A stretch of DNA of 64,000 bases from Halichondria panicea (lineage: Eukaryota; Porifera; Demospongiae; Suberitida; Halichondriidae). The stretch spans positions 5,399,047-5,463,046 of the forward strand of contig NC_087388.1 of assembly GCF_963675165.1 (NCBI RefSeq), given 5' to 3'. The notes under the pieces were generated by a model. It saw only the letters and a list, made by a program, of their open reading frames with translations, was not told the origin of the DNA and did no database searches. Shown piece after piece: positions 31,106 to 64,000 of this stretch. A program made the translations under genes and the position numbers. Every line of letters begins with the position of its first letter. Position 1 is the stretch's first letter.

Positions 31106-34100
31106 ATGGCTATGTTAGTAACTCTCTTTGCCTTGTTTCTGCTGCAAGGAGCAGCTCATTCTCAATCATTCTCCTTCCAAGACTCTACCAATGTCCCAGG
31201 ACTGCAAGTGCAGGACTCCACTGGGAGAACATTCCTTACTGCAGACAACTACCTTTATAGACTGAATGCTCAGCTAATACAAGAAGAGAAAGTTGATGTA
31301 GGAGCTAATGTCATCAATAGAGGACTGGCCCTGAGCTCTACTGGGATGGTGGTGGTGTGTTTAGAGGATCTCTCTTGCTCTGTGTACAATGCAAGCAACC
31401 TCAGTAATGGTCCTATCAGGAGTGTCAGTAATGCTATAGCCTCAGCAGATCCTAACTTTGGAGCAGCGATCTTTACGTCAGGAGACACTTTCTACACTGG
31501 AGCATCAACTGGTGCAGGATTCGAAGAGAAGATGGTACTGCAACAATTCGGAGAGGGGTTGAATAGATCGTCCGACAACAATCGTAATGAACTGATTTTT
31601 AGGGTTAGTGAATTCTCCAGACAATTCTATGGAGGATTTGTGAGTGGTAACTTTGCCTACTATGTTGTCGCTGACTACCAACCTGCTGATACACGAGCTA
31701 TAAGACTGTTACGTGTTTGCAACATGCCTGATTGTGGAGGCCCAAGTACCTGTGGAGTGACTGCTTTGTATGAACTGGGGTTCGATTGCGGACATCAGAC
31801 AATCAGTCAACCTACTCGTGTGTGTGGGGTGTCATTAATGGATGACTTCAGTGGGATATCTGGACCCACAGCTGTGGTAACTATTTGTACACCTATCTTC
31901 ACTGATAGAAGTTTTGTTTGCGTGGTCAATGTCACTGCCGTCAATGAAGCTATGGATGCTAAATATATCTCTTGTATTGCGTCATCGAATGGTATTGAAG
32001 ACATTGATTTAGCATGGAGAAGGTCCTCAGAAAGCTGCAATAACCTACCTCAGGTTCGTAACTATATATAATATAGACTGGGGTCAGGTTTCATTCAGAG
32101 GGGGAGCTCTGCATGCATGCATGGGATTCCCCCATAGAAATCTAAAAATTGATCATATTGATTCATAATTATCTTGAACTATAGACTAGTGTTTGAAGCA
32201 TGCAAAAACTCACATTTCCTGGGAGAAGAATTAACGTCCCAGCTAAAAATTCTGTGGACCGTATTACTAATTATCAAATCAGTTCTCATATTTCGATAAT
32301 TTTTCAGGTAACTGGGAACAGATGTGATACACTCACTCCCGTCGGTATTCTCGCCCCTTATGGTGGTAGGGACAGTATAGCACCAGTTCGTATCAACTTT
32401 GTTGGGGGTGCTGTCCCCACTGCTTCAGTAGCTGTGAAGGTGGAGCAGTTTTCCTTTGTGTTTGTGGCAACTGATGATATGAGGATAAGAGGAGTAAGTG
32501 GTTGGGTGAGTTAGTGTGTATAGTTAAGGCATTGTTTGTCTTCACAGTACGATGTCAATGGTATATCTACTATATTCTACAATCAGCTGGTGACCTCTCT
32601 TGTACATCAGTTGTCATGGCAGGAGGGACTGAACTACATCACAGCAGCCACTGCAGACGCTGTGAATTAATGATTTATGTCCTACCTTATCCATTATCCT
32701 CACCCCTCTGCTGTAGGTGTTTCAAGTACCCATAGAGGAGTGTTCCCAGCGTATAGACTGTACCAGTTGTACCAATGACCTCAACCCGCTGTGTGGGTGG
32801 TGTGTGGTGGAAAACAAGTGCTCTCGTCAGACGCAGTGTCAGAACTCCAGTCTCTCCAGTAGATGGATACAGGACAATGTCTGTGTTACTGCCACTGTGA
32901 ACCCTATGCAACATGTGCTTGACCAAGCAATTCTTCCTACAGTGGTAAAAATCATAATTATAAAGTTTCTTTATGGTCAATTATGGCTTCATTTATGCTT
33001 TGTGTGGTGCAGGGACACTACATAGAGAAGTGTTAACTTTTAGCTAGTTAGGTTACAGATCTATAGCATATAGATAGAAGCACTTTTATGGTATATGAAA
33101 CTTTGATGTTCAGTAAAGTATGACAAAGTTATGACAACTTTATGAAGGTCAAACTCAACACAAATAGACTTTAGTTGTGTTTGAAAGCATTTATGATCAG
33201 TGACCCCCACACACACAGCTCACAGTGACCCTGGTGTCCCCTGGCCTACCTTTCCTCATGTCTGGGGAGACCTTCTTCTGTCATCTGGCGGACGGTGAAG
33301 GACGTTTCCCACCCATCATAGTACCAGCTGTTGAGGTCACCCCAGGAACATCGTTCAGTTGTGATATTGAAGGACTGGTACCTGACTATCCTGGAGTGAC
33401 TTCAACCATCAACCTGGGATTTCAGAGCTCTCTGTTCAATGAGCCATTTGATATCACCAACCAAGCGCTCACCATCTACAGGTGCTCAGCAGGAGAAAGG
33501 TATCACCTCAATATTCAAATTCAATATTCATGGTACGTACATTTAGTTGCAGTATAGTCATGATTATCAACTCCCCAATGACTGCATGAAGTCCATTTTA
33601 ATGATGAATAGTTATATAAGGCACCACTAAACAGCGAGACTATAATTATGTACGTGCGAAATGTCGATGAATGCTATAATTATATGGAGATCTTTCATTC
33701 TCACTGCACAGTTGTAAGGATTGCCTTGGGCTCGACAGTCCTTGTGGATGGTGTAACCTCAACAAGCAGTGCAGTGGAACATCAGCTCCTTGCAGGAATG
33801 TATCTCACTTCCTACAGGTGAGCTCAGTAATCATGGTGACCTGTGACTCTGTACACATCCTCTGTAAAGGTGTCTGGAGGCAACAACTTCACTGCCGAGT
33901 GCCCCTTATTGGACACGCCCCCCTCTGGTGAGTACACTCAACCAGTAAGGGTGGCCCAGGACCTTCGACTGACTACCAAGAACCTTATTTCACCTGTAAG
34001 TCACATGACATCCGTACCTGTTTGTTTAATGGCTTCCCTCTCCATTAGACGGATGGCTTTGAGTACTGTTGTGTTGTGAATGGAGTTAGTCTGACAGCTC

Positions 34101-37100
34101 GGTATGAGAACAAAAACTCCATTCTGTGTACAGTGGGCAGCGGGCAAGTGAGTGGAGACAATAACGTTCTTATGATCACTTGTTGTGTTTACTATCTCAT
34201 CCTTAAGTGCTTATCTTAGTCACTGGAATATCACATATAAGTATTTTCACTTTCTGCAACACAAGACAAATGCTTTTACAATTGCTTGCCTCAAATAGTG
34301 ATGATCTTGTGTACAGCTCACACTACCTGCTGGTGTTGGCAGTTCCACTGTAGATGTCAAGGTGATGTGGTTAGGGAATGGCATCAACCGCCTACTGAGC
34401 AGTATCATGCAACAGACCAATGGTACATGCATACACAGCTAATGCAGGTAACAGATGTTTCAGTATAGCGGCACCAGCACATGTACGTGCAGTGCATGCA
34501 ACATTTTTACTGCATGCGGAATGTTGTGCAAACGAGTGGGAATGATCGACTATGATATATAGTTGCTAAAAAGTGGCCAAAAGTTCGAAGTATTGGTGCA
34601 TGGTCAGTGGCGGATCCAGAGGGGGTTCTTTGGGTTCAATTGAACCCCCCCTTTGAGAAAGAAGTGAGTGGGAGGCTCAAGCAACTAATTAGCAAGTTGT
34701 TCCTTTCTTACTAGCTTTCACATGCACTTCTCACTTACCTTTAGTCGATCCTTGTTAGTCCTGCGAAGCTTTATCTGTGCAGTTTCAGTGACTATGAAGG
34801 CTAAAAACTCTCCAGCGTAGTGCATGCAGACTGCTTATGAAAGTGATGACCTTTTTTTTAGGAAAAAATTCGGTGTGTTAATGCACATGCTCATTGTTTC
34901 GAAGAAGTTACGACGTCTTTTTTTAGGTAAAATGTAAAATTTACAATCCTTGACCTGCTCAGAGCCCTGGAACCCCCCTTTCAAGATTCCTAGATCCTCC
35001 ACTGAAGGTGTAGCCTCTTTTTTCCATCTTGCAGCTACTATAGTCCTATAGCTAGCTAGCTTTCTGCATACCGTATACCTCACTTGCGCACGCGGAAACT
35101 GAGGCATAATTATTACGCTTACCACCCTCCCCCTATACACACACACAGTGACTCTGTATGATTGTCGTGATTTGGCCAGTGGGTGTTCAGAGTGCCTTGC
35201 GTCCATACTGGGATCAGAGTTCACGTGTGGGTGGTGTGTGATCAGGGAAAGCTGTGAGGTGTTGCAAGAATGCACCAATGATGTTTGGGTTACTGAGGGG
35301 AGAAATTGTCCTACCCCTTTCATCAACTCAATCTCTCCAGAATCTGGTAACTGAATGTATAATTATAACCTGATATTATTACACCTATATACAGGACCAG
35401 TTGAGGGTGGTACAGCAATCACTGTCAGAGGGACTGACCTCGGAGTGACCTTTTCCGACGTTCAGAGCTCCACGCTTACATTAAGAGGCGTGGCCTGCAC
35501 TCCCATCAATACTGACTATATACCAGGAAGGCAGTTTGTGTGTGTCACCAACCACTTTGGAAGTACAGGAAGCAATGTCTTCACTATGGTCCTCTATGGC
35601 CATATAGACGTCAATATAAACGCCGATCCCTTTATTGCATTGAATCCTAGTGTCAGGAGCGTCAAACCGACCTTTGGGCCCATGGCCGGAGGTACCAAAC
35701 TGACTGTGGGGGGTAGAGAGTTAGGAACTGGTAACCTTGAGAACACTAGAGTCACTATAGAAATCAATGGAGGGGCAACCTATCCCTGCAGCATGATGTA
35801 AGTGGCTATAATTATTAAATAAAATGCAGTAGACAATGTTTAAACCTTTCCGTGCAGATCAGTCTTTTCTCAAGATATTGAATGCACCACTACGGCAGCA
35901 AACCTCGCCTCCGATGCAGAGGTGGTGGTTACTATTGATGCTGCTAGACTGACTTTTGGAGTGGTGTTCAGTTACCGTAACAACCCCAATGTAACTGCCG
36001 TGTTTCCTAGCAACACCATTCCCAGTGGAGGCATCACACTAACCTTTACTGGACTGGATTTGGACGTGGTACAACAGCCTGTATTGGAGGTGTATAGAGG
36101 AACGGGGTCTCCTCTGGTGAGCCAGCAATAATGTCTGTACATGATGTATTACTCTCTCCCCTTATATAGAGAATCTACTGCATTGTTGTGAACAGTATCG
36201 CAATCACATGCTCTACTCCTAGTCTAGGGACGACCTCACTGACCCCATTGAACTATTCCCTGTTGTTTGATGATGCCCCACCCACTACACAAGCACGTCT
36301 CCCCATCACCGTCCAATCAGATCCCTTCAATTTTACACTAGAGGGTTCTCAAGAGGTCACCAGTGGCACAGTGACCCTCATACGCATTGTGGTACATCCT
36401 ATAGCTAGTACAATGACCCTATACTGTACCATGTGTGTATCCAGGGTGAAAATCTCGACTCAGTGGAGACCAGTGAGATACGAGTGACCGTGGGAGGGGA
36501 GGAGTGTGTCAAGATACCCTCCAATAGTAGAGGTAGTGACATCATCTGCACTGTCCCCTTGGAGCGGCCAGGAGGGCAGGAACTAGCCATCATAAATGTG
36601 AGTAATTATCTATAAAAAATAACTGTTTGTCATTGTCTCCTTCAGGTGACCATTGGGAGCAACATCTCTCAAGTATTGGACCGTCAACTGACTTATCCAT
36701 TGCCTGAGGTAACGGTTATTGAGCCAACAGTTCCTCTGGAGATCATCATTCCAGTTATTGTTGTTATCTTTGTATTGGTCGTGTGTTTACTGATGATTGT
36801 GATTGTCTGCTTATATCTGAACTCGAGGAGAAAGTCCATGTCGATTGCTATGCACCAACAAATGGTGGAGCTTGTGGCTACTACTGGGTAAGTAACGCTA
36901 TATAATTATATACCTACTTATGTCGCTTTTACGGTTGTATTAGGAAAACTCCGGAGGCAGTGGATGGAAATAATGCACTCGTTATGCCTCGAGGCGTAGC
37001 CGCACGAGGGATACGGTAAAGCTGACTGTGTGTGTGTCTGTCTGTCTGTCTGTCTGTGTGTGTGTGTATTCCAGCTATAACTGCTCAACGGTTGCAATGT

Positions 37101-40100
37101 AACGAAAACTAACAGCTTCTATAGGCTTCTAGCCACGTTCTCTTGGATTTTGATTCGTGGATTAGCAAACTAAAGCTTCTTTCTCGAGTTATGGCTAGTT
37201 TGACTCACATTGAAGGCTGTTGCAGTCTCTTCAGAATCTTTCATAGCATCATCTGTCCGCACAAACTTTCTATTCAACATATGAGTTAGCCTTGCACTAA
37301 AGCGCTAGCTTTTTGTTAGCTACAATACTCAGAAAATATCTTTTAAAACAGCTAGCTAGCAGTAGCCATTTGTGAAATTGATCTCTTTGGACACACCCTT
37401 TAATTATTCCTGTGGATGTAATGCGCATGCGCGCTCATTCCCCATGTGTGAGAAAATAATATCCCAAGATCCTCCTGGCAGAATCATCTTTGTCTTGAGG
37501 GCCTGGTATATAAGCCACAAAACACTACCATATAACAATATAGATAACAATATGCATGTACACAGGTCTTTTCTTCTTAGATATTATATACACTGAACTA
37601 CAGATCCTGGAAGAATCAATTTTCTTCTTTCTTGAGATCCTGGTAAGCCACATAATACAACAATAGATGCATGTAAATAAGTCTTTTCTTCTCAGTGACT
37701 TTATATAGATAAGCTAACTTTAATACTAATATAACACTCTAATACTTTTAAGCGAAAGCAAAAACATGGCGAGAGGCATTAGCACAGCGCCAGCTTGAAC
37801 ACTAGTTAGTAAGTTAGTACATGTGTATAACTATAGTCTATAGTTATATTCATTGACCTACAGAATCAGAGCTTGATGAAATTGCCAAGTCCATCCCAGA
37901 CTCATTCAAAATACCAGCCTCCATATTGAAGCTCTCCAGTACTGCAATTGGACAAGGTAAAGAAAGATGTGCATTTCACTTAATTTATGGGATGTCACTA
38001 TACAGGTGAATTTGGCGTTGTGTACAAGGGAGTTCTGACAGACTGGAACAAAGTACCTATGCAGGGGGTGGCCGTGAAGACATTAAAAGGTGATATCAAT
38101 TGAAAACACATTAAAATGTTTATCTTACATGTACATGTTACTGTTATATCGACCACACGTTTTTCTGGTTCTCATGCTATGTTTTTTGCTACTACATAAA
38201 AAGTACAATTTCTGGCCAACAGCTAACAATACAACACAGTCAACCAACGTTGCATTTCTGATGAGCCATGCAGTTAATCATTTTTATACTCTATAATTAT
38301 GCATGCAGGTCTGTTCTCGTTGTCGGATGTTCAGAGCATGGTGTGTGAGGTGAACAAGATGCAAGACTTTGACCATCCTCACGTCATGTCCCTGATTGGG
38401 GTGTGTCTCGATGCTGGCCCCGGGATTGCCATAGTGATGCCATATATGGCCAACGGGAGCCTTTTCGACTACCTCAAGAAAGAAAGGGATAATCTGGAGC
38501 TGGACGATGACTGTGAGATTGATCAGGTGTGTGTGTGTGTATTTTAGCAATTTTAATTAGCACTATTATATAAATACACCGGCCCCAATTGCAAAGCATA
38601 ACTACTTGAGTGTAGAAATTAATTTGTATGCATGCGTATATATAGGGACAGTACAGAGTGGTTTCAATAATAATTATTGAAGGTTAGAGCACCACCAAAT
38701 GATTTTGATCAGCGTTGTCCTTTTCATTCTCTGTATAGATTCTGGCAGTGAGGAAACTGCTACTAAAAATGTGCCATCAGATAGCACTGGGAATGGCCTA
38801 CTTGGCCGAGCAGAAGTTTGTCCATCGAGACCTTGCAGCCAGAAACTGCATGTGAGTGACTACGTGTAGTGAGAGACGTCAGTGTTAACAATAATCACAT
38901 GTAAAGCTACAAAGATAATTCATTGCTAACGTTACTATTATCGTAGCAGTATCACAAATCAACAACTCATCCAACTCTTCATGAAAATTGATTTACGTGC
39001 ATTGTTAGCGTGGTTTCATCTTGTACATTCCTATAGGCTGGACTCGGGAGGGGGTATCAGGGTGGGGGACTTTGGTCTGGCTGAGGACGTCTATGCTAGC
39101 GGCTACTTCAGACAGAACGACCGATCCAATGTGAAGGTGCCCTACAAATGGATGGCCTTGGAGAGTCTCAACGATGCCATCTTCACAGAGAAAACTGATG
39201 TGGTCAGTCAGCAGTGCATGGTAGACCAGTATGGCCTAATAAGCACTCCAGGAAAATTTCAAAATTTTCTGTGCATTTATTGGTATTGTAGGTATATAGA
39301 CCTCCTGCATGTACAAAGTTTACGACCAAACACGAAAACATTTATAGCAAGACATAATTATGCTCATTCAGTGGTCGTACGGTGTGACTGTATGGGAGGT
39401 TTTCAATGGAGGACGGACCCCCTACCCTGCCGTGGACCCACTGTCCCTCATCCAGCTGCTGGGAGAGGGGCGGAGACTAGAGAGACCTCTCACTGCAGCC
39501 TGTGTCACCGAGATGTGAGTGTATATACTCTTTGAGTTGTAGCATGCAGTAATTTGAGTACTGCATCACTGTGTGCAACTCTCCCCCCCTCCTAGCTCGG
39601 AGTTGGCTGTAATTGAAGCGGGGAAAAGTTGTCAATACCATTTTAATGTTGCATGCTCTCTTGTGGTTCCACACTTTTGTTCTAACCGAGGCTACTGTAT
39701 ATATGCATTACCTCCTCACCCAGTTCTGTGGTGATGCGCAAGTGTTGGAGGGAGGACCCAGAGGAGAGGCCAACCTTCTCACAACTGTCCTCCATTGTGG
39801 AGAGGCTACTGGCATCCATCTCTGGCTACACTGAGCTCGGAATGGTGCTAGTGGACACCAGTAAAGAGGAGGAGGAGCTCAGTAAGTGTATAAATTATAT
39901 GGACTTAAATTTGTTAGCCATGCAGCTTTTATTTTGTTTGCCGTATGCTATAATTATTGTATGTGTACACTAGAACCTCGATTATCCGGACACCTTGGTT
40001 CCAGAGGCAGGCCGGATAACTGAATATACGAATAGATAAACCACGCCTTGATCCACCCACTTTATTGATAAACAACAGTGCCACCTGGTTGTCTGCGCAT

Positions 40101-40508
40101 GCGCAGAAGATAAACAGACTTGTCTCCATAGTAACAGCTGCAATGTGCATGTGCATTTCAGGGACAAGCCCATTTCTAAATTATTATATCTGAAACTTCC
40201 AAGCCGGATAATGAGGTTCCGGATAATGGAGGGCCGGATAATGGAGATTCTGTTCTACTGTATTTTGAAAGAAAGTGTATAACTTCTTGCATGCATGGCC
40301 ATAGGAGTCTTTGCATAATTTGTAGACTGTCATTATTATAACTCGAGGCTTGTACGTCAGAAATGTCAAATTTCTTAATACCACTGCAGAATATGACTAT
40401 GTCCCCACGTCCACGGAAGCCTCTCATCGCTATGGCAACTTTCCATTAAGTGACCCTCTAACAACTGACAACAGTGCGTACGGCCTCAGGGAAGAGATAA
40501 CTACATGA
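31106..40508 (+). CDS. RTK A: plexin-type ectodomain receptor tyrosine kinase, disrupted at exon 16
   Basis: Twenty-four exons: 31106-32053, 32308-32493, 32548-32661, 32717-32944, 33219-33499, 33712-33817, 33870-33995, 34049-34147, 34317-34422, 35149-35346, 35395-35797, 35858-36116, 36170-36391, 36445-36597, 36646-36887, 36944-36984, 37864-37956, 38006-38089, 38309-38526, 38739-38851, 39037-39202, 39372-39514, 39724-39881, 40390-40508 (TGA). With ancestral splicing the protein would have 1601 residues: signal peptide, Sema (exons 1-3), PSI1 (4), IPT1 (5), PSI2 (6), IPT2 (7-9), PSI3 (10), IPT3-6 (11-14), membrane helix (15), kinase (17-23) and tail (24). Kinase motifs are intact ([16 protein letters not shown]). 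However, an insertion begins at the last base of exon 16 and removes its GTAAGT donor. Skipping the 41-nt exon, or using the nearest cryptic donor, shifts the frame, so the kinase is probably not made from normal transcripts. The exon 3 donor (GTGAAT) is also weak. Confidence 0.82.
34605..35004. mobile_element. hAT-like relic in RTK A intron 9
   Basis: Starts CAGTGGCGGATCCAG and ends with the inverted, slightly diverged CTAGATCCTCCACTG. G-rich and C-rich subterminal stretches (AGGGGGTT, AACCCCCC) are typical of small hAT derivatives. No coding capacity. It is absent from the matching intron in RTK B and C, so it inserted after the duplications. Confidence 0.5.
36984..37804 (+). mobile_element. 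Interspersed element inserted at the RTK A exon 16 donor
   Basis: The intact RTK B and C loci read GCACTCGTTA/GTAAGT at the end of exon 16. In RTK A the same sequence is split by about 820 bases starting ATGCCTCGAGGCGTAGCC and ending near CAGCTTGAACACTAG, after which GTTAGTAAG resumes. A GT/GTCT microsatellite lies near its left end. A related, longer copy sits in RTK B intron 8 and a diverged one in ITPR intron 8. No transposase is encoded. The family is not identified. Confidence 0.75.
39968..40260. mobile_element. Pogo-like MITE in the last intron of RTK A
   Basis: CACTAGAACCTCGATTATCC at the left and a degenerate inverted copy ending TTCTACTG at the right, flanked by TA. The terminal GAACCTCGATTATCCGGA motif resembles pogo/Tigger-type ends. 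The same insertion occurs in RTK B (52603-52891) but not in RTK C. Confidence 0.7.
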
Positions 40509-41358
40509 CTTGAATTATATTTAAAATACAGCCGAACTACGATGTCTGCATTATGTAATACAATTGCATTGAGCTTTGTTTTTACTAATTAGATTTAGTT
40601 AAGTATTGACTTACATTCAGCTGCTGCATGCTTATACATAATTATAATGACCACTTGTATATTACTTAGTGCATGGCATTTATAATTAGAATACTGTCTT
40701 TTTCTTATAGTGCCATGTACCCTAGCCAACTTCATAATTTAATTATATCTCACGGCAGTTCACCTGAAATTTCAGATAACCTTTTTGTAAGTGTTGAATG
40801 ACTCCAAAGAAGATGTAGCGAATGGACACTCGTATTTCATTCCGTGTATGCATGGACAACTTGCTTAAAATAATTTTGTTATACTGATTGATACAGAGTA
40901 GCGTAAGTGACAATCACATTCCCGACGATTGATGATTGCTCATTTATATACATTTCCTGCATGAGATTCAATGAATGCGTAAGCTAGCTATCATCAGCCC
41001 CTTATTCTAAGCTAGCTCCTCCCCCAAAATTACTTTGGAGGTGTGTGCCCTGAGTCACACCCATTGTATACCAGGGTGTGGTCTAGTTACATTGCATTGC
41101 AAAATTAGGTACAGTAACATGTACCAATGCAAAAACTTGAAGTAGATCTAGATCTAGTTCAAGATATTGCACTGTCAGCAATGAATCATTATAACCTCAT
41201 GGCCTAGTAATCAAAACCATGTGATGATAATCTACTTTCAGTTTGCTTGGCATAATAACCAGTGGCGTGTACAATGGCTTTGGGGGCTTGAGCACCCCCC
41301 TGTCCTCCCAGACAACCATGAAACTAATCGTATCACTCAGTAGCTAGCTAGCTAACTG
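40509..41358 (+). other. Downstream flank of RTK A, shared with the RTK B and D flanks
   Basis: About 750 bases after the stop are closely similar to the sequence after RTK B (from 53139) and after the RTK D relic (from 62788), so the duplication unit extended past the gene end. The last part (from about 41262) resembles a degenerate CAGTGGCG-type element end. No gene was seen. Confidence 0.7.
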
Positions 41359-41367
41359 TGCAGCTCT

Positions 41368-46600: not shown

Positions 46601-46754
46601 GTGGTAAAGTTGAGTGGGTGTGATCAATCCACTTGAGATACTGCAATCTGATTGGAATTCCACCAGCAGAAAAACTGTGGATAGGCTTGATTCCCGACCT
46701 CCTTCCGGGCAACGGTAGAGGGTGGTGGCGCCCGACTAATGGTAAAACTGACTG

Positions 46755-46830
<76 letters not shown>

Positions 46831-47569
46831 TGTGTGTTTATAGAAGGTATACAAAAGGTATAGGGTGGATGATGGCTTTCGACCATACATCCTATCTTAT
46901 TCAACACGGAATGCTCAATTCAAAATTTTCATTTGGAATCCCATCTCTGTTGCTACCTTACTTACTGTATACCTTATATATCAGTATAGGACTTAGGTTC
47001 TAGTTTGAATTCAATGTGGGCAGTGGTCATCGTCAATATACTAAAAAATAAAAACAGACGAACAAACAAAGGAGCAAACAGCACAAAACCATACAGGTAG
47101 AAAAATCAAACAGATGCCCGACCTTGAGAGTCGAGAATGATGGGTTAAAGAGTCTTTAACGGTGCACCAACCCTCCCCACTCATCTGTTGCATTCAGAAC
47201 GACTAGTATACTCAATAAGCTACTTACTTGGGGCCATGCTGATTGTAAGCTATATTCACAATTGAGGTAATGCTGACATAAGTATAGAACTTATCTTATA
47301 GACTTGATATTGGCTGCTGTAATACTTAGCTTGCATGGCTGTGTGCTTTGTGTGAACTAAATCTGACCTTGAGGGAGGCTTAATTTACAAGTACAGGCCT
47401 GTATTGTCTGAGCCAGGTTTTGTGGTGGTACTATCTGATAATGGGGATGGGTCTATGTGGTTCTTCTAGGTGGCAAGCACAAAACAAGCATTAACCTCAA
47501 ATGTTGGTTCTTAGAATGAGCGATAGGCATTAGTAAAAAAAATAGATAGAGTCTAGTAGTGTGTGTGTG

Positions 47570-47601
<32 letters not shown>

Positions 47602-50600: not shown

Positions 50601-53138
50601 AAGATGTGCATTTCACTTGATTAATGGGCTGACACTATACAGGTGAATTTGGCGTTGTGTACAAGGGAGTCCTGACAGACTGGAACAAAGTACCTATGCA
50701 GGGGGTGGCCGTGAAGACATTAAAAGGTAACATCAATTGAAAACACATTAAAATGTTTATCTTACATGTACACACGTTACTGTATATAGGTTATATCAAC
50801 CACACGTTTTTCTGGTTCTCATGCTAGGTTTTTTTGCTACCCCCTACATAAAAAGTACAATTTCTGGCCAACAGCTAACAATACAACACAGTCAATCAAC
50901 GTTGCATTTCTGATGAGCCATGCAGTTAATCGTTATTATACTCTATATGCATGCAGGTCTGTTCTCGTTGTCGGATGTTCAGAGCATGATGTGTGAGGTG
51001 AACAAGATGCAGGACTTTGACCATCCTCACATTATGTCCCTGATTGGGGTGTGTCTCGATGCTGGCCCCGGGATTGCCATAGTGATGCCATATATGGCCA
51101 ACGGGAGCCTTTTCGACTACCTCAAGAAAGAGAGGGATAATCTGGAGCTGGACGATGACTGTGAGATTGATCAGGTGTGTGTGTGTACTTTAGCAATTTT
51201 AATTAGCATTATTATACATACGCCCCAAGGCATAACTACTTGAGTGTAGAAATTAATGCAAGTATTGTATATATAGGGACAGTACGGAGTGGTCTATTGA
51301 AGATTAGAGCACCACTAATAATAAGCACCACCAAATGATTTGATCAGCGTTGTCCTTTTCATTCTCTATAGATTCTGGCAGTGAGGAAACTGCTACTAAA
51401 AATGTGCCATCAGATAGCACTGGGAATGGCCTACTTGGCTGAGCAGAAGTTTGTCCATCGAGACCTTGCAGCCAGAAACTGCATGTGAGTGACTACGTGT
51501 AGTGAGAGACGTCAGTGTTAACAATAATCACATGTAAAGCTTGAGACCAATTCATTGCGACGAATCTAACATTACTATTATCATAAGTATTACAAATCAA
51601 CAACTCATGCAACTCTTCATGAAAATTGACTCACGCGCATAATTATGATTGTTAGTGTGGTTTTATCGTGTACATTCCAATAGGCTGGACTCGGGAGGGG
51701 GTATCAGGGTGGGGGACTTTGGTCTGGCTGAGGACGTCTATGCTAGTGGCTACTTCAGACAGAACGACCGAGCCAATGTGAAGGTGCCCTACAAATGGAT
51801 GGCCTTGGAGAGTCTCAACGATGCCATCTTCACAGAGAAAACTGATGTGGTCAGTCAGCAGTGCATGGTAGACCAGTATGGCCTAATAAGCACTCCAGGA
51901 AAATTTCAAAATTTTCTGTGCATTTATTGGTATTGTAGGTATATAGACCTCCTGCATGTACAAAGTTTACGACCAAACACGAAAACATTTATAGCAAGAC
52001 ATAATTATGCTCATTCAGTGGTCGTACGGTGTGACTGTGTGGGAGGTTTTCAATGGAGGACGGACCCCCTATCCTGCCGTGGATCCGCTGTCCCTCATCC
52101 AGCTGCTGGGAGAGGGGCGGAGACTAGAGAGACCTCTCACTGCAGCCTGTGCCACCGAGATGTGAGTGTATATAGAGTTGTAGCATGCAGTATATAGTAT
52201 AGTATATATTTGATTACTGCATGTGTGCAACTCTTTCTTCTTCCCCCCCTTGGTGTCGGCTGTAATTGAAGCGGGTAAAAGTTGTCCGTACCATTTTAAG
52301 GCTGCTCTCTAGTGGTTCCACACTTTTGTTCTAACCGAGGCTCACTATTATACATTACCTCCTCACCCAGTTCTGTGGTGATGCGCAAGTGTTGGAGGGA
52401 GGACCCAGAGGAGAGGCCAACCTTCTCACAACTGTCCTCCATTGTGGAGAGGTTACTGGCATCCATCTCTGGCTACACTGAGCTTGGAATGGTGCTAGTG
52501 GACACCAGTCAAGAGGAGGAGCTCAGTAAGTGTATAAATTATATGGACTTAGCCATGCAGCTTTTATTTTGTTTGCCGTATGCTATAATTATTGTATGTA
52601 TACAGTAGAACCTCGATTATCCGGACACCTTGGTTCCAGAGGCAGGCCGGATAACTGAATATACGAATAGATAAACCACGCCTTGATCCACCCACTTTAT
52701 TGATAAACAACAGTGCCACCTGGTTGTCTACTCATGCGCAGAAGATAAACAGACTTGTCTCCATAGTAACAGCTGCAATGCGCATGTGCATTTCAGGGAC
52801 AAGCCCATTTCTGAATTATTATATCTGAAACTGCCAAGCCGGATAATGGAGGTTCCGGATAAAGGAGGGCCGGATAATCGAGGTTCTACTGTATTTTGAA
52901 AGGAAGTGTATACCTTCTTGCATGCATGGCCATAGGAGTCTTTGTATAATTTGTAGGCTGTCATTATTATAACTCGAGGCTTGTACGTCAGAATGTCAAA
53001 TTTCTTAATACCACTGCAGAATATGACTATGTCCCCACGCCCACGGAAGCCTCTCATCGCTATGGCAACTTTCCATTAAGTGACCCTCTAACAACTGACA
53101 ACAGTGCGTACGGCCTCAGGGAAGAGATAACTACATGA
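43660..53138 (+). CDS. RTK B: plexin-type ectodomain receptor tyrosine kinase
   Basis: Twenty-four exons: 43660-44610, 44670-44840, 44895-45008, 45069-45299, 45356-45642, 45839-45944, 46017-46142, 46196-46294, 48394-48499, 48590-48787, 48855-49254, 49304-49562, 49623-49844, 49899-50054, 50111-50349, 50406-50446, 50497-50589, 50643-50726, 50957-51174, 51372-51484, 51684-51849, 52019-52161, 52371-52525, 53020-53138. Total 1598 residues, all phases consistent. Signal peptide and Sema to about 412; PSI1 413-489 (CGWC core); IPT1 490-585; PSI2 585-620; IPT2 620-730; PSI3 731-796; IPT3-6 797-1142; membrane helix near 1172-1195; kinase about 1245-1560 with [23 protein letters not shown] and WSYGV. 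The tail has YDYV, a possible SH2-docking site. The ATG used by RTK A is TTG here, so the start is taken as the next ATG, two codons later, which keeps the signal peptide. Ligand unknown. Confidence 0.9.
46411..46738. mobile_element. Nested MITE inside the RTK B intron 8 insertion
   Basis: Left end TAGTCGAGCGCCGCCGCCC and the inverted right end GGTGGCGCCCGACTA. Subterminal AAGGAGGTCGGGAATCAAGC is matched by GCTTGATTCCCGACCTCCTT. No clean target duplication. The matching position in the RTK A copy lacks it. Confidence 0.65.
46758..46838 (+). repeat. (TG)n(CGTG)n microsatellite
   Basis: About 20 TG units followed by eight CGTG units. A second, similar tract lies at 47561-47608. Confidence 0.9.
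52603..52891. mobile_element. Pogo-like MITE in the last intron of RTK B
   Basis: CAGTAGAACCTCGATTATCC at the left and its inverted complement ending TCGAGGTTCTACTG at the right, flanked by TA. It is orthologous in position to 39968-40260 in RTK A, so it predates the A/B duplication. It is better preserved than the A copy. Confidence 0.8.
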
Positions 53139-53937: not shown

Positions 53938-56900
53938 ATGGCTATGTTAGTGGCTTTCTTTGCTTTGTTTCTGCTGCAAGGAGCAGTTTATTCTCAATCA
54001 CCCTCCTTTAATTTTTTTACAACTGACGACTATCTCCCAGGACTGCAAGTGGACTCCACTGGAAGAACATTCCTTGCTGCAGACAACTACCTGTATAGAC
54101 TGAATGCTCAGCTACTACAAGAGGAGAGAGTTGATCTAGGAGCTTTTGTCCTTGAAGAAGGACTGGTCCTGAGCTCTACTGGGATGTTGGTGGTGTGTTT
54201 AGAGGATCTCTCTTGCTCTGTCTACAATGCAAGCAACCTCAGTACTGGTCCTATCAGGAGTGTCAGTAATGCTATAGTGGGATATTTTGACTCTGGAGCA
54301 GCTATCATTACGTCAGGAGACAGTTTCTACACTGGAGCAATAACTGATAAAGGTGAGAGAATTGTACTGCAACAATTCGGAGAGGAGTTCAGTAGATCTT
54401 CCGACAACAATCCATCAGGCACACGCAATGAACTGGTTGTTGAGGTTAATCATTTCTTTGAACGAGACTTTTATGCATTTGGTGGTTTTGTGAGTAATGG
54501 ATTTGCCTATTATGTTGTTGTCGATTATCAACCTGCTGATGCACGAGCTATAAGACTATTACGTGTTTGCAACATGCCTGATTGTGGAGGCCCAAGTACC
54601 TGTGGAGTGACTGGTTTATATGAACTGGGAATCAATTGCGGTCTTCAGGGGATCACTGAAAATACTTGTTTGTGTGCAGTGTCATTAATGGAGGACTTCA
54701 GTGGGATATCTGGACCCACTGCTGTGGTAACTATTTGCAATGACACTACTAACTCTATTTGTGTGGTCAATATCACTGCTGTCAATGAAGCTATGGACGC
54801 TAAATATGACTCTTGTATTGTGTCACGGACTGCTGGAGAAGAAATTGGTTTAGCATGGAGAACAGGCTCCTCAGAAAACTGCGATACCCTGCCTCAGTCT
54901 CAGGTACGTTTGTATAATTATAGCATACTGGTCTATTTATATAAAATCAACAATGCACAGGTAACAGGGGACAGATGTGACACACCCAGTCCAGTCGGCA
55001 TTCTCATTCCAAATGGTGGTATTGACATAATAGCACCAGTTCGTATCAACTTTGGAGTTGACCTTGTCTCCTTTGCTTCAGTAGCTGTGAAGGTGGAGCA
55101 GTTTTCCTTTGTGTTTGTGGCAACTAATGATTCTAGAATAAGAGGAGTAAGTGTGCATGATTGTGTATAATTATGACATTGCTTGTCTTTACAGTACGAT
55201 GTCAGTGGTACATCGATCCTGGGCCCTGATAGCTATTTCTACAGTCAGCGAGAGAGATATGATGTATATCTTTTGTCGTGGCATGAGGGACTGAACTACA
55301 TCACAGCAGCCACTGCATACTCTGTAAGTTCATTATGGCATGCATGTACGCATATATATGTCCTATACCCTATCCATGCATTATACCCCTTTGTAGGTGT
55401 TCCAAGTACCCATTGAGGAGTGTTCCCAGCATACAAACTGTACCAGTTGTACCAATGACCTCAACCCGTTGTGTGGGTGGTGTGTGGTGGAGAACAAGTG
55501 CTCTCGTCAGACGCAGTGTCAGAACTCCAGTCTCTCTAGTAGATGGGTACAGGACAATACCAACTGTTTTACTCCCACTGTGGATCCTATGCAGCTTGTC
55601 CTCGACCCTGCAATTCTTGCTAATGTGGTAAAAGACTTGCATGTCCATGCACTAATGTGACTGTCTGAGGTTATATAAGTTATCCCCACAGGTCACGGTG
55701 ACCCTGCCTAACCCCCTGCCTGGAGAGAATATCTCCTGTCATTTGGCGGACAGTGAAGGACGTTTCCCACCCATCATAGTACCAGCTGTTGAGGTCATCC
55801 CAGGAATAGTGTTCAGTTGTGATATTGAAGGACTGGTACCTGACTACCCTGGACTGACTGCAACCATCAACCTGGGATTTCAGAGCTCTCTGTTCAATGA
55901 GCCATTTAACGTTACCAACCAAGCACTCACAATCTACAATTGCTCAGCAGGGAAAAGGTATAGGTACCTCAACCATATTCATGACCTGCTGATCACACTA
56001 TGAATGTGCAGCTGTAAGGATTGCCTTAGGCCCAATAGTCCGTGTGGATGGTGTAACCTCAACAAGCAGTGTAGTGGAACAGCAACTCTGTGCAAGAATA
56101 CGTCTCACTTCCTACAGGTGATAGCTTGATGACCCCTGACTCTCTAATGTCTATACCCCTCTATAAAGGTGTCTATATCTACAGACTTCAGAGCCCTATG
56201 CCCCCTGCTAGATACGACCCCCTTTGGGGGGCACACTCTACCAGTGAGGGTAGTCCAGGACCTTCGACTGACCACTAGGAACCTGATACCACCAGTAAGT
56301 CAACATTAACTCTGTACCCTGACCCTTCCATGGCTTCTCTATAGACGGATGGCTTCGAGTATTTGTGTATTGTGAATGGAGTTAGCCTGGCAGCTCAGTA
56401 TGAGAATGAGACCTCTATCCTGTGCAATGTGGGCAGTGGAGACGTAAGTGCTAACACTGTAATACAATACAATGTAATGTAATGTAAACTGCACGGACAG
56501 TTTCACAATGACCATTAAATGCTGATTGTGATTTAATTAGTGTTGCATTCTAGTTATCACAATACCATACATGACACAGCTCAACCTGCCTACTGGTAGT
56601 GGTAGCTCTTCTGTGGTTGCTACGGTGATATGGTTCGGGAATGGCATCATCCACCCACTCAGCAGTGTCACACAACAGACTGACAGTACGTACACCATCA
56701 CAGTAACTACAAAAGTTGGACTAACATTTATACACAACCTCTGTTTACCATATGCCCCTCCCCCTCCCCCCAACACACACAATGACATAAAGTTACGTTG
56801 TTTGATTGTCGTAACTTGGGCAGTGAATGTTCAGAGTGCCTAGCATCCAGACTGGCGTCAAAGTTCACGTGTGGGTGGTGTAGCCTTAGCGACAGCTGTG

Positions 56901-59900
56901 AGGTGTTGCAAGAATGCACCAATAATGTTTTTGTTACTGAGGGGAGAAATTGTCCTTCCCCTTTCATCAAATCAATCTCTCCAGAATCTGGTAATCATTA
57001 TAATTTTACCTACTATATGCCATGATACTTCCTACACCCACAGGACCAGTTGATGGTGGTACAGCAATCACTGTGATGGGCACTGACCTCGGAGTGACCT
57101 TTGCTGACATTCTGAACGCCACCCTTACATTAGGAGGTGTGGCCTGTACTATCATCAACACCAACTATATACCAGGGAGGCAGTTTGTGTGTGTGACCAA
57201 CAACTTTGGAAGTACAGGCAGCAATGTCTTCACTATGGTCCTGTATGGCAATATAGACGTCAATGTAAACGCTGATCCTTTCATTGCGTTGAATCCCTTT
57301 GTTAGTAGCGTCAAACCGACCTTTGGACCCGTGGCAGGGGGTACCAAACTGACTGTGAGGGGTACTGCACTAAGAGTGGGTAACCATGAGAACACTAGAG
57401 TCACTCTGGTCAGTGGAGGGTTAATCTACACCTGCAACGTATTGTAAGTGGCAGTATACGTCTGGAAATGTTGAAACCTTTCCTTGCAGATCAATCTTTT
57501 CTCAAGAGATTGAATGCACCACTACAGCAGCAAACCTCACCTCCGCTGCAGAGGTGGTAGTTACTATTGATGCTGCTAGACTGGACTTTGGAGTGTTCTT
57601 CACTTACAGTAACAACCCCAATGTAACTGCTGTGAGTCCTAGCAACACCATTCCCAGTGGAGGCATCACACTGACCTTTACTGGAGTGTACTTGGACGTA
57701 GTACAACAGCCTGTGTTGGAGATCTACCAGCCCATGGAGGAGGATCCTCTGGTAAGCCAGCAACTATAATTATGTCTGTATTATTTACTCTCCCCTACAG
57801 AGAAGCAACTGCAGTGTTGTGGACAATACAACCATCACATGCTTGACTCCTAGTCTGCTAATAACCTCGCTGACCCCATTGGACTATGCCCTACTGTTTG
57901 ATGATGTCCCACCTATCACACAAGCACGTTTTCCCATCAGCGTCCAATTAGATCCCTCCAATTTCCGGCTGGAGGGTTCTCAAAAGGTCCCTAATGGCAC
58001 AGAGACGCTCATACTCATTGTGGTATGTAATATTAGCTAGTAAACCGACCCTATTAATTGTTATTGTGTGTGTATCCAGGGTGATAATCTCGACTCAGTG
58101 GAGACCAGTGAGATACGAGTGACAGTGGGAGGGGAGGAGTGTGTCAAGACACCCAGTAGCGTAAGAGGGAGTGAATTCATCTGTACTGCCCCCTTGGAGC
58201 CGCCAGGAGGGGAAAACCCAGCCAACATAAATGTGTGTATGACTATAATTATACGTAACTGTGTCACTGTTCACTTCAGGTAACCGTTGGAAGCAACATC
58301 GCTCAAAAATTGGACCGGCAACTGACTTATACATTTCCTGAAGCAACGGTTTTTGGGCCAACAGTTCCTCTGGAGATCATCATTCCAGTTATTGTTATCA
58401 TATTTATAATGGTTGTGTGTGTACTGACAATTGCTATTGTCTGCTTGTATCTGAACTCAAGGAGAAAGTCAGTACCAATTTATATGCATCAGCATGAGCA
58501 AAGGATAGAGCTCACGGCTACTGGGTAAGTAATGATAATATTATATACTGTTGTTCAATTTGCAAATTAATTTGTTACAGGAAAACTCATGAGGTAGTCG
58601 ATGGTAATACTGCACTCGTTAGTAAGTTTTCTTTTCTACACACACATGTATAGTCCCTGTTACATGCAACAAATTATATTCAGAATCAGAACTTGTTGAG
58701 ATTGCTGAGTCCATCCCAGACTCATTCAAAATAGCTGCCTCAAAATTGAAGCTCTCCAGTACTGCAATAGGACAAGGTAAAGAAAGATGTGCAAATAATT
58801 TGATTTTGGGATGTGACTATACAGGTGAATTTGGCGTTGTGTACAAGGGTGTTCTGACAGACTGGAACAAAGTACCTATGCAGGGGGTGGCCGTGAAGAC
58901 ATTAAAAGGTTATAATTATCATTATTGTTGTGAGATGAATATTACACAATGAAACCTTTTGAACACAGAAACTATAAACTCACGATTATTTCGCGATCAT
59001 TCCCTCTATAGACATGTTAACCTAAATTCCGGTCTGCAGTCAGTTATACATTTTCTGAGCCCTAGAGATTCATTTTTCTGCAATTGTAACACACAACATT
59101 TCATTTCTGATGAGTTAGTTCTTCATTATTTATACAGGTCTGTTCTCATTGTCGGATGTTCAGAGCATGGTGTGTGAGGTGAACAAGATGCAGGACTTTG
59201 ACCATCCTCACGTCATGTCCCTAATTGGAGTGTGTCTCGATGCTGGCCCCGGTGTTGCCATAGTGATGCCATATATGGCCAATGGCAGCCTTATTAGCTA
59301 CCTCAAAAAAGAAAGGAGCAGCCTTGAGTTGGACGATGACTGTGACATAGATCAGGTGTGTGTGGTGTAGGGTGCATACGAGTAGTAAATAGCTCAGTAT
59401 CTATGACGACTACCTTTTGGTTTAGAGCATGTATAAGTAATATACTATATAATTATGGTATTAGTGTGAGCATTGTGTGGGTGTCTCAACAGAAAGGTAT
59501 GTGGGGCTGCATGATTACTGTGATCCATGTGTATAGAGAGATGCATGCTACATTCCCATCAGCTATACTGGGTCAAAATATATTTCTTTTTGACCACTTG
59601 ACCAGCCTATTTTACTGAAACAACATGCATCAGCCTTATGGTCTGACCATATTCCACAACAAATCACGTTCACTATAGCTATGCATGCATATATATAGTG
59701 CAAGGTGTACAAAATGATAGTTAAAACTGGCGCATGCAGAATGCAGGGAAAGAATGACTATATAGCTATAATTATCTAGAAAGAATTTTTTCAATTTGTG
59801 TCAGCAGCGTGATCGATTGTGGGGATAATACTGACTTGGAGTATATAAAATTATGATGAGCTTTTCCAGAACTTAGTCAAAAATCAGAGCACCAATAAAT

Positions 59901-61276
59901 TATTAATAATTTGTAAAGAAGTGGTTGCCATTGATACAGATTCTGGAAGTGAGGAAACTGCTACTAAAGATGTGTCGTCAGATAGCACTGGGAATGGCCT
60001 ACTTGGCTGAACAGAAGTTTGTCCATCGCGACCTTGCAGCCAGAAACTGCATGTGAGTGAACGATTGACAGTGTGCACGAAAGAAATCATGACACTAAGT
60101 ATAATCATGCAAAGTTCATGTTTTTATAGCCACGGTAACGTTATACTATAGTTGGAGCATTCTTCCTTGCATGCGACAAAAATTATATCCAATGGTATGC
60201 ATCGATATTGTAAAAATATCACTAGCATACTAGCTGGTTAGCATTTTACATAATTGTTTCCATGAGGTTTTATCTTGACATATAATACATTCAGGCTGGA
60301 CTCGGGAGGGGGTATCAGGGTGGGGGACTTTGGTTTGGCTGAAGACGTCTATGCTAGCGGCTACTTCAGACAGAACGACAGAGCCAATGTGAAGCTGCCC
60401 TACAAATGGATGGCCATGGAGAGTCTCAACGATGCCATATTCACAGAAAAAACTGATGTGGTGAGTCAGTGCATGATCACAAGCTCTATAACTCAGTAAT
60501 AGCTTTATTTTCGTGAACACGCTCTATCTAACCTCAACCCCTAATTTGTGTCTGAAATACATTTTCCTTTCATAATCATTTACTTGTCGTCCATGTGCCC
60601 ATGCAGTGGTCGTATGGTGTGACTGTGTGGGAAGTCTTCAATGGAGGACGGACCCCCTACCCTGCTGTGGACCCACACTCCCTCATCCAGCTGCTGGGAG
60701 AGGGGCGGAGACTAGAGAAACCTCTCAACGCAGCCTGTTCCGCCGAAATGTGAGTGTACACTCTCTGAGTTGAGTATCGTAGCAGTTGCATTGAGCTAGT
60801 TGTTGTGTTGGGTGGACTGAGATTTGGAATTACCATTTTGTTCCAACTGACTGTACATCCCTCTACACTCACTCAGTTCTGAAGTGATGCGTCAGTGTTG
60901 GAGGGAGGACCCAGAGGAGAGACCAACCTTCTCACAACTGTCCTCCACTGTGGACAAGTTACTGACATCCATTGCTGGCTACACTGAGCTCGGTATGGTG
61001 CTACTGAACACAGTTCAAGAGGTGGAGCAGCTCAGTAAGTGCATAATTAAAAGATAGTATGCTACTATAAATAGCAGCTCTTAATGAATACTTACTTAGT
61101 GTAGTATACTAAGACATGCTAAAAATCATTATTCATTCCATGCTTTTACTGCAGAATGTGACAATGTACCTTCACCTACTGAAGACGCTAATCGTTATGT
61201 CGATGGTCCACCAGGTCACCCTCTAGCATTCAAAAACAGAATGTACGAAGAAGAATTTACTGCAACAGACGATTAA
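53938..61276 (+). CDS. RTK C: plexin-type ectodomain receptor tyrosine kinase
   Basis: Twenty-four exons: 53938-54903, 54961-55146, 55195-55323, 55397-55627, 55692-55957, 56012-56117, 56169-56294, 56345-56443, 56580-56685, 56793-56990, 57044-57443, 57490-57751, 57801-58022, 58080-58232, 58280-58524, 58581-58621, 58684-58776, 58825-58908, 59138-59355, 59940-60052, 60295-60460, 60607-60749, 60877-61034, 61155-61276 (TAA). Total 1610 residues, frame closed throughout. Domain order is as in RTK B. PSI cores CGWC are kept in exons 4, 6 and 10. Kinase essentials are kept: the VAVK lysine, a Glu in the CEVNKM helix, [12 protein letters not shown] and KWMAME. It is the most diverged of the three full genes and carries no large transposon. 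Its tail replaces the YDYV of A and B with CDNV and ends in an acidic MYEEEF stretch, so its docking partners may differ. Confidence 0.92.
59356..59939 (+). other. RTK C intron 19, nothing recognisable
   Basis: A 584-base AT-rich intron, longer than the matching introns of A and B (about 200 bases). No TIRs or coding similarity noticed. Confidence 0.55.
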
Positions 61277-61452: not shown

Positions 61453-61458
61453 AATAAA
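61453..61458 (+). terminator. Probable RTK C polyadenylation signal AATAAA
   Basis: A canonical hexamer about 175 bases after the RTK C stop, followed by GT-rich and T-rich sequence. Confidence 0.5.
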
Positions 61459-61595
61459 GTCACATGCAATGTTTCCCGTCTTAATAATTTTGTCCTCAAT
61501 TAACTATTTTCACATGCAGTGCCTATAATATTATATAGGCAGTCTTTTTACAATTTGAACAAAAAATATTCCGGAATATTGGTTTGGCACAGACC

Positions 61596-61642
61596 TAGCC
61601 TCGAATCCAGGCCGTATTTTAATCGGCCTGGTCTCGAGGCTA
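61596..61642. mobile_element. 47-bp mini-element with Mutator-like ends and perfect 9-bp target duplication
   Basis: TAGCCTCGAATCCAGGCCG and, inverted, CGGCCTGGTCTCGAGGCTA are joined by only a few AT-rich bases. The direct repeat GCACAGACC flanks it at 61587-61595 and 61643-61651. It consists of little more than two TIRs, yet the duplication shows that it transposed. Confidence 0.8.
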
Positions 61643-61809
61643 GCACAGACCTAGCAATGGGCAAGGGAATATATTGATGTGTTTACTGATAATTATTGAT
61701 AGTAGCATGATGCATAAGTGACATTCCAAGGATTGTTATGACAGTACACATCACATGCAGCCAGTCATAATAATGCATACTTTGTATTTATGTACTGACA
61801 ATTCGGTGT

Positions 61810-62176
61810 ACAGCTTACGTTTTCTGCTGTATAGGGTCGGCTGCTCTGGTTGTCATGGTAACCTGGACGCATCAACCACCCACTGAGCAACATATTGAAA
61901 CAAATTTCAAGTATCATTTCTTTCTGTCAACAATCATTGTTATACTCTATATGCATGCAGGTCTGTTCTCTTTGTCAGATGTTCAGAGCATGGTGTGTGA
62001 GGTGAACAAGATGCAGAACTTTGACCATCCTTGCGTCATGTCTCTAATTGGGGTGTGTCTCGATGCTGGCCACGGGATTGCCATAGTGATGCCATATATG
62101 GCCAACGGGAGCCTTTTTGACTACCTCAAGAAAGAGAGGGATAATCTGGAGCTGGACGATGACTGTGAGATTGATC

Positions 62177-62210
<34 letters not shown>

Positions 62211-62787
62211 TTTAGCAATTTTAATTAGCACTATTATACATATGCCCCAAGGCATAACTACTTGAGTGTAGAAATTAATTTGTATCAGTACAGAACATCT
62301 TTTATTAAGCTTTATCAGTATACGGAAGTTCCCGAAATTAATTTGTATCATTATTTGCATGCAAGTATAATTATTATTGTATATAGGGACAGTACAGAGT
62401 GGTCATCTTTGCACAATACTTCTATGTAACGGACTGTAACTTCAGAATACATACAAATAGTATACGGTTTATTTTACTGACAGTATCCACAAATACACGG
62501 ATTACCCCCTTTTTGGGGTAATGTACACGCATGCGCATACAATGTATACCATGCAGGCCGCCTTTCTCTTCGCGGCCTGGAATCGAGGCTAATAATTATG
62601 TAGACTGTCATTATCTGTAACTCGAGACTTGTACGTTAGAAATGTCAAATTTCTTAATACCACTGCAGAATATGACTATGTCCCCACGCCCACGGAAGCC
62701 TCTCATCACTATGGCAACTTTCCATTAAGTGACCCTCTAACAACTGACAACAGTGCGTATGGCCTCAGGGAAGAGATAACTACATGA
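61810..62787 (+). pseudogene. RTK D: relic with traces of exons 9, 19 and 24
   Basis: A degenerate copy of exon 9 (about 61812-61905, with CATCAACCACCCACTGAGCA preserved) is followed directly by the 3' end of intron 18, then a near-intact exon 19 (61961-62178) with good splice sites, a truncated intron containing a fragment of another element, and an intact exon 24 (62669-62787, TGA). Exons 1-8, 10-18 and 20-23 are missing. In exon 19 the conserved DHPHVMS reads DHPCVMS and AGPG reads AGHG. The catalytic loop, DFG and membrane helix are absent, so no kinase can be made. Confidence 0.85.
62404..62591 (-). mobile_element. Truncated Mutator-like element inside RTK D
   Basis: An inverted copy of 5028-5217, including the ATGCGCATGCG and GGGGTAAT...ATTACCCC palindromes and the GGCCTGGAATCGAGGCTA end. 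The other end is missing. It replaced the RTK exons that should lie between exons 19 and 24, so it may mark the deletion that created the relic. Confidence 0.65.
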
Positions 62788-63424: not shown

Positions 63425-64000
63425 ATGGCTATATTAGTAACTCTCCTTGCTTTGTTTCTGCTGCAAGGAGCAGCTTATTCTCAATCACCCTCCTTTGATT
63501 TCATTTCAGCTGAAAATCTCGGACTGCAAGTGGACTCCACTGGGAGAACATTCCTTGCTGCAGACAACTACTTGTATAGACTGAATGCTCAGCTAATACA
63601 AGAGGAGAGAGTTTATCTAGGAGCTAATTTTTATGTCATTAATGAAGGACTTGCCCTGAGCTCTACTGGGATGTTGGTGGTGTGTTTAGAGGATCTCTCT
63701 TGCTCTGTCTACAATGCAAGCAACCTCAGTGCTGGTCCCATTAGGAGTGTCAGTAATGCTATAGCAGGAGATTTTTACTTCGGAGCAGCTTTGTTTATGT
63801 CAGGAGACGCTTTCTACACTGGAGCAATGACTGATGAAGGACAGAGAATGGTACTGCAACAATTCGGAGAGGGGTTCAATAGATCGTCCAACAACAACAA
63901 TCCATCAGACACGCGTAATGAACTGGTTTTTGGAATTAGTTCGTTTACGCGACAATTCTATGCATATGGTGGTTTTGTGAGTGGTGGATTTTCATATTAT
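63425..64000 (+). CDS. RTK E: N-terminal Sema exon of a fifth receptor, cut by the window end
   Basis: The frame is open from ATG to the window edge (192 codons). Signal peptide [20 protein letters not shown], then the family Sema segment with [20 protein letters not shown] and [18 protein letters not shown]. Closest to RTK C by eye, including the upstream sequence. Whether the remaining exons are intact cannot be judged here. Confidence 0.88.
   Translation, partial: MAILVTLLALFLLQGAAYSQSPSFDFISAENLGLQVDSTGRTFLAADNYLYRLNAQLIQEERVYLGANFYVINEGLALSSTGMLVVCLEDLSCSVYNASNLSAGPIRSVSNAIAGDFYFGAALFMSGDAFYTGAMTDEGQRMVLQQFGEGFNRSSNNNNPSDTRNELVFGISSFTRQFYAYGGFVSGGFSYY

Follow-up and report, generated by a model that had tools for sequence, protein, structure and literature searches.

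The window analyzed here, which is the whole 64,000-nucleotide stretch of the sponge Halichondria panicea given above (C12:5399047-5463046, contig NC_087388.1, within an assembly of 131.5 Mb), lies inside a tandem array of genes predicted to code for receptor tyrosine kinases (RTKs) that combine a plexin-type ectodomain with an intracellular kinase. Using tblastn with individual exons we recovered 13 receptor genes (G1, G2 and A to K) across a contiguous 201 kb (C12:5360001-5561000), with all 24 exons found in nine of them and the short exon 16 alone missing from the remaining four. B and C were modelled with a codon and splice-site model and then corrected by comparing copy with copy, C being curated by hand; automatic models were obtained for 12 of the 13 genes (1538-1604 amino acids), while K gave no start codon and no model. 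In C, F and H these automatic models missed exon 10, and in J an 84-nucleotide exon. Two genes, B and C, lie complete within the window:

43660..53138, + strand: gene B, complete receptor of 24 exons and 1598 amino acids (curated model, Pfam, plexin-A1 alignment)
43660..45008, + strand: gene B exons 1-3, signal peptide (by eye) and Sema (plexin-A/B profile match; Pfam Sema negative)
45069..45299, + strand: gene B exon 4, PSI1 (Pfam PSI)
45356..45642, + strand: gene B exon 5, IPT1 region (collinear with plexin-A1; among the matches listed, no Pfam TIG match of its own)
45839..45944, + strand: gene B exon 6, PSI2 (Pfam PSI, plexin-A1 alignment)
46017..48499, + strand: gene B exons 7-9, IPT2 region (TIG_2 hint, plexin-A1 alignment)
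48590..48787, + strand: gene B exon 10, PSI3 (Pfam PSI, plexin-A1 alignment)
48855..50349, + strand: gene B exons 11-15, IPT3-IPT6 and transmembrane segment (Pfam TIG; transmembrane segment by sequence reading)
50406..50589, + strand: gene B exons 16-17, juxtamembrane region and kinase start (gene model)
50643..52525, + strand: gene B exons 18-23, tyrosine kinase with [15 protein letters not shown] present (Pfam PF07714, PDB)
53020..53138, + strand: gene B exon 24, C-terminal tail (gene model)
53938..61276, + strand: gene C, complete receptor of 24 exons and 1610 amino acids (curated model, Pfam)

Every intron of B and C is of the GT-AG type, and the exon phases of the two genes are identical. 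Based on Pfam profiles and alignment to plexin-A1, the domain order of both is read as Sema-PSI1-IPT1-PSI2-IPT2-PSI3-IPT3-6-transmembrane segment (TM)-tyrosine kinase, with Sema and IPT1-2 supported less strongly; a preliminary description of this DNA had assigned the same order to gene A, whose join to the kinase we regard as doubtful (see below). The kinase profile PF07714 matched at E 7.8e-80 in B and 1.3e-80 in C, and each protein showed three PSI and four TIG stretches at a permissive E<=10. PSI1 by itself matches Pfam PSI at E 3e-8 and the PSI2-PSI3 part yields two PSI stretches at E<=0.1, so that the profile search upheld the second and third PSI; for IPT1-2 it returned just a TIG_2 hint in the IPT2 region (E 0.059), and the identity of these two domains is taken from collinearity with plexin-A1. 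In that comparison gene B, from PSI1 to the membrane, gave one collinear match to plexin-A1 (5l56; query 2-625, PSI1-IPT1-PSI2-IPT2-PSI3-IPT3-5, E 9.3e-57), whereas the same stretch aligned to MET (7mo7) from the third PSI onward only (query 321-719, E 1e-30), so that PSI1-IPT1-PSI2-IPT2 are without a MET counterpart in this alignment. The motifs cited in the preliminary description are all present, namely IYRCSAGE followed by CKDC, WLGNG/WFGNG, CGWC in all three PSI cores, and [23 protein letters not shown]. The array receptors thus share with MET and RON the general Sema-PSI-IPT-TM-kinase order, but differ from their layout of one PSI and four IPT domains in having three PSI; with plexins of the class A type they share the ectodomain order, the three PSI and the collinear match, within the limits noted for Sema and IPT1-2.

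For the Sema domain we assembled a Sema-PSI profile from eight sequences (seven array genes and a plexin of the same contig, P1, considered below) and searched it against PDB. It matched plexin-A1, A2, A4, B1, 'Plexin A, isoform A' and C1, with a best E of 1.1e-17, and semaphorins only weakly (4D, E 0.0049); MET was absent from the 24 PDB sequences listed at E<=1. The matches to the plexin-A/B structures start at profile position 163 or 266 and so do not cover the first third of Sema; the domain is assigned by this profile match with that third unconfirmed.

The kinase retains intact [12 protein letters not shown] and DFG motifs. Among the best 60 of 2261 PDB matches the highest summed score belongs to an EGFR chain containing two kinase stretches (327.5 bits, 162 each), and the single-domain kinases follow as MET (216.0 bits), MER (213.7), AXL (209.9), RON (207.2), RET (203.2) and FGFR2 (195.7). 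The C-lobe is 46% identical to MET, 47% to MER, 43% to AXL and 42% to EGFR, and a C-lobe tree joins the array kinase to the TAM receptors (AXL, MER, TYRO3) and then to MET, with weak support (142 columns, 13 sequences; of nine sponge loci tried, L005-L008 and L036 were dropped, no kinase being found in them by regular expression). By these comparisons the kinase is of the Met/TAM class, Met and TAM not being separable, and the proposal that a Met/Axl-like kinase replaces the GTPase-activating protein (GAP) domain of plexins holds for B and C in this form; plexin RBD/RasGAP is replaced by the kinase in both genes, and plexin GAP matches occur elsewhere on C12. TAM receptors carry Ig and FN3 domains outside the cell, in contrast to the Sema-PSI-IPT ectodomain of the array. 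A related kinase on C6 (L056, C6:2349801-2353000) matches exons 17-19 at 64-68% identity, with exons 18 and 19 starting at the same residue. Upstream of it lie a TM (by eye) and an fn3-like segment (Pfam fn3 E 0.012), and none of the array ectodomain exons was matched within the 3.2 kb read. This relative suggests that the kinase may have existed beforehand with another ectodomain.

The closest relative of the ectodomain is found in the same genome. Exons 1-12 of plexin P1 (exon-1 match C12:6736191) correspond one to one with the RTK exons at 66-86% identity (better of B and C), with GT/AG signals at the corresponding places by eye except at the end of exon 11; the mean P1-RTK identity equals the RTK-RTK identity in exons 4, 6 and 7 and falls below it in the remaining nine. 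Plexin_RBD is matched farther downstream on that strand (E 3e-14), as are pieces of RasGAP (E 1e-6 to 5e-33). The genome holds a second plexin, P2 (about C12:6482501-6491525), with GAP, TIG and PSI exons, whose clearly matching exons (4, 10 and 11) are about 30-38% identical to those of the array. Over exons 1-12 the synonymous divergence (dS) between P1 and the RTKs is 0.491-0.591 in all 13 comparisons, against a maximum of 0.409 and a median of 0.314 among the 78 RTK pairs; by this measure P1 would have split off before the RTKs radiated, and the divergence is unsaturated. This disfavours an animal-wide ancient fusion, for which saturation would be expected except where gene conversion had prevented the copies from diverging. 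The preliminary description had left open whether these receptors are an intermediate form in the plexin-Met relationship or an independent fusion; in light of a GAP plexin with a closely related ectodomain in the same genome and of the unsaturated dS, the evidence favours the latter, as a lineage-specific fusion followed by tandem amplification.

The array extends far beyond the window. In a genome-wide ectodomain search, of which the best 38 of 327 candidates were scored so that copy counts are lower bounds, C12 carries at least 28 full exon-1 copies besides P1 and one partial copy carrying a stop. In all 28 listed full copies a kinase exon follows on the same strand at a distance of 4.9-9.8 kb (searched within 12 kb), and among the matches listed 5 of the 33 C12 exon-19 matches taken are without an exon-1 partner. 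D and I are near-identical across exons 1-12, suggesting a duplicated block. We computed dN/dS by the NG86 method for 13 genes, excluding pairs with dS <=0.05 or undefined (68-77 of 78 pairs kept, depending on the region). The median ratio is 0.62 in Sema, 0.32-0.47 in the PSI/IPT regions, 0.38 in the TM and juxtamembrane part, 0.19 in the kinase and 0.56 in the tail. Median dS is practically the same in Sema (0.245) and kinase (0.238) and higher in the other regions (0.32-0.41), and both ends may to some extent have been homogenised; with dS equal, the codon comparison indicates a constrained kinase and a faster Sema. In sliding windows along Sema exon 1 (12 genes, gene I being omitted as near-identical to D) the ratio runs from 0.28 to 1.43 and exceeds 1 in 2 of 32 windows only, and we therefore make no claim of positive selection.

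Taken together, we consider it probable, with good though not full confidence, that the array codes for plexin-ectodomain RTKs that arose by a lineage-specific fusion, were amplified in tandem and signal upon dimerisation by a ligand. The direction of fusion, the ligand and the signalling that we infer are as follows. Each intact gene would give one single-pass RTK, its outer part a complete plexin ectodomain made up of Sema, three PSI and six IPT domains and its inner part the Met/TAM-class kinase. A duplicate plexin ectodomain, close to that of P1 on the same contig, would have been joined upstream of an existing receptor kinase in this sponge lineage, and the fused gene then amplified to about 30 copies. 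A semaphorin-like dimeric ligand may bind the Sema domains and hold two receptors together, upon which the paired kinases would phosphorylate tyrosines of each other's activation loop and tail. Plexins signal through GTPase inactivation; here a plexin-type cue would instead be converted into tyrosine phosphorylation. Functionally, these proteins are most likely kinases that a ligand dimerises and that respond to a cue of semaphorin type or a related one. A candidate ligand is a semaphorin-like protein encoded on C15 (L009, C15:2839028-2839465), with Sema (Pfam, 60.8 bits), PSI (31 bits) and a TM by sequence reading. A bolder and distinctly tentative extension is that this is a recent third independent plexin-kinase fusion and the first outside Bilateria, in which about 30 receptors with fast Sema and near-constant kinase might, judging by copy number and the Sema/kinase contrast, serve recognition, whether of self versus non-self or of microbes, in an animal devoid of neurons.

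A receptor of this kind has been described before. Met-LP, reported in 2019 for Lophotrochozoa and Echinodermata, is a Met-like RTK with a complete plexin ectodomain, found in annelid, mollusc and starfish (Junqueira Alves 2019, PMC6374515); according to the available text of that paper two independent kinase acquisitions were inferred and the group is polyphyletic, the starfish gene adjoins a Plexin-B gene, and the origin of Met is placed in Bilateria. The array receptors resemble Met-LP in their complete plexin ectodomain (Sema, three PSI and six IPT, Sema being assigned by the plexin profile and IPT1-2 by collinearity), predicted to be joined through a single TM to an intracellular kinase of the Met/TAM class. 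They differ in belonging to a sponge, in an ectodomain closest to that of a GAP plexin in the same genome, and in numbering about 30 tandem copies against one in annelid and mollusc or four in starfish (PMC6374515). For the sponge covered there, Amphimedon, the same text gives six plexins, four of them with short intracellular parts, and four semaphorins, and lists neither Met nor Met-LP. In H. panicea itself two genes are stated to rise 6 h after lipopolysaccharide, one for a putative semaphorin receptor of the plexin group and one with a Sema domain (PMC8242945). The accessible portions of that paper, of a holozoan kinome paper (PMC8662651) and of a choanoflagellate paper (PMC6792448) do not describe a sponge plexin-kinase receptor, nor did our literature search return a report of one within its reach, which excluded supplements and most subscription papers; PMC6374515 was the only directly relevant paper.

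The array is thus apparently a known kind of receptor in a new phylum, with a third origin and a far larger expansion, and the joining of plexin and kinase was probably fairly recent and independent of that in the mollusc, worm and starfish receptors. If true, attachment of a kinase to a plexin ectodomain recurred in sponges and is a recurrent route to such receptors, not a single bilaterian event, and the published bilaterian start of Met-type receptors needs the qualifier 'by descent'. The persistence of P1 on the same contig makes the fusion datable and its junction mappable, and the variable Sema beside a constrained kinase offers a case in which the diversification of a receptor repertoire can be tested in an animal of an early-branching lineage.

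Several observations weigh against our interpretation. Pfam did not detect Sema in B and C at E<=10 or, at E<=1, in any of the eight Sema-PSI sequences; a genome-wide Sema search gave no match in the window and four elsewhere. An AlphaFold2 Sema-PSI model from three sequences had a mean confidence (pLDDT) of 31.8 and was unusable. The evidence that ectodomain and kinase share one transcript is genomic, and the continuity of the P1 ectodomain with its GAP as one gene is likewise deduced from order, strand and distance. The fn3 match of the C6 kinase falls below the Pfam cut-off. Gene conversion could lower dS. Finally, a protein tree rooted on plexin-A1, itself a very long branch, puts P1 inside the RTKs; the nodes concerned have ultrafast bootstrap values of 36-65 and values of 84-98.6 in the approximate likelihood ratio test (SH-aLRT), the latter favouring P1 inside, and constraining the RTKs to monophyly with P1 outside gave p 0.41 in the approximately unbiased (AU) test, by which that arrangement is neither rejected nor shown. 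The ectodomain tree, run separately from that of the kinase, is therefore undecided on P1.

This placement is what would be expected if the RTK family were older and P1 had taken over an RTK ectodomain, a reversal of direction that we consider unlikely but worth keeping in view. It accords with the rooted tree (SH-aLRT 98.6 and ultrafast bootstrap 65 at the P1 node) and with the parity of P1-RTK and RTK-RTK similarity in exons 4, 6 and 7; the low bootstrap values and the AU result blunt the first of these, and dS sets P1 outside all 13 RTKs. Rather less probable is that the array preserves an ancient form, surviving from a plexin-to-Met transition shared with bilaterian Met or Met-LP. MET is indeed the best single-domain PDB match of the kinase, but by the small margin over MER given above, and the C-lobe is equally close to both; the general layout is common to MET, Met-LP and the array receptors, but the bilaterian Met-LPs are themselves reported polyphyletic in the text available to us (PMC6374515), and the ectodomain remains 66-86% identical to that of a GAP plexin in the same genome at an unsaturated dS of about 0.5.

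Least credible of all is that the gene of a truncated plexin-like receptor and a neighbouring kinase gene have been misread as one, a reading to which the Amphimedon plexins with short intracellular parts (PMC6374515, as far as its text is available) and the lack in gene A of a GT donor joining its halves in frame within the stretch examined lend some colour, but which is opposed by the identical phases of TM exon 15, juxtamembrane exons 16-17 and the kinase exons in B and C, the pairing of exon 1 with a kinase exon in 28 of 28 listed copies, the median dN/dS of 0.38 across exons 15-17, and introns of 47-67 bp before exon 16 and of 50-71 bp after it, each in 11 of the 12 modelled copies. We infer that ectodomain and kinase belong to a single protein, the join of a full plexin ectodomain to a kinase being supported at the genome level in B and C and doubtful in A:

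31106..40509, + strand: gene A, interrupted at exon 16; exons 1-15 (31106-36887) encode the ectodomain and TM, exons 17-24 (37864-40509) the kinase and tail (exon search, gene comparison)
36984..37806, no strand: repetitive insert of about 823 bp at the gene A exon-16 donor, ends approximate, TTA on each side (comparison with gene B)

Pieces of this insert turn up again in the long intron of B and at other places within the 201 kb. The ectodomain, TM and kinase exons of A are each open and intact family copies adjoin the gene, but the insert at the exon-16 donor leaves no GT donor with the phase for exon 17 in the 87 bp examined, which held two weak GC sites only, and for this reason the join is doubtful. 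Reading on past exon 16 ends shortly beyond the membrane; an unrestricted model spans the gap via exons of 6 and 17 nucleotides and a restricted one via a weak GC donor, the cryptic-exon combinations having been covered non-exhaustively. Gene A may thus encode a receptor lacking the kinase, be a damaged copy, or be spliced in an unusual way.

Further parts of the family in and beyond the window are:

61774..62787, + strand: relic between C and D, kinase exon 19 and tail exon 24 only (exon search)
63425..64000, + strand: first exon of gene D, which has 24 exons and runs past the window to C12:5470043 (exon search and gene model)
about C12:5524630-5525465: second relic, exons 19 and 24 only, between H and I (exon search)

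Among the matches listed, further exon-19 matches of 80-88% identity lie on C2 (one), C4 (two) and C5 (four), and more distant ones on C1, C5 and C6. Four close kinase relatives, C2:7388794, C5:2107615, C5:2132270 and C5:5939681, have TIG matches a few kb upstream and, among the matches listed, no exon-1 match to the window ectodomain. On C1, between 15.5 and 17.4 Mb, numerous protein kinase matches of similar scores occur on both strands, and TIG domains were also found inside a 10,065-amino-acid open frame on C6 (C6:2383538-2384083, - strand).

Upstream of the array, the window contains frames with IP3/ryanodine receptor domains at 1713-2105 and 3126-3659 on the + strand (Ins145_P3_rec E 1e-18, MIR E 7e-30). 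A silicatein-like gene cluster, which speaks for a demosponge, lies at C2:656-668 kb, where 3 of 23 genome matches to a silicatein-type pattern fall (a reversed control pattern gave 16 matches). These matches read Cys-Gly-Ala-Ser-Tyr-Ala-Phe, which we take to be the silicatein motif, with Ser replacing the catalytic Cys, and a silicatein query matches the cluster exon by exon at up to 88%.

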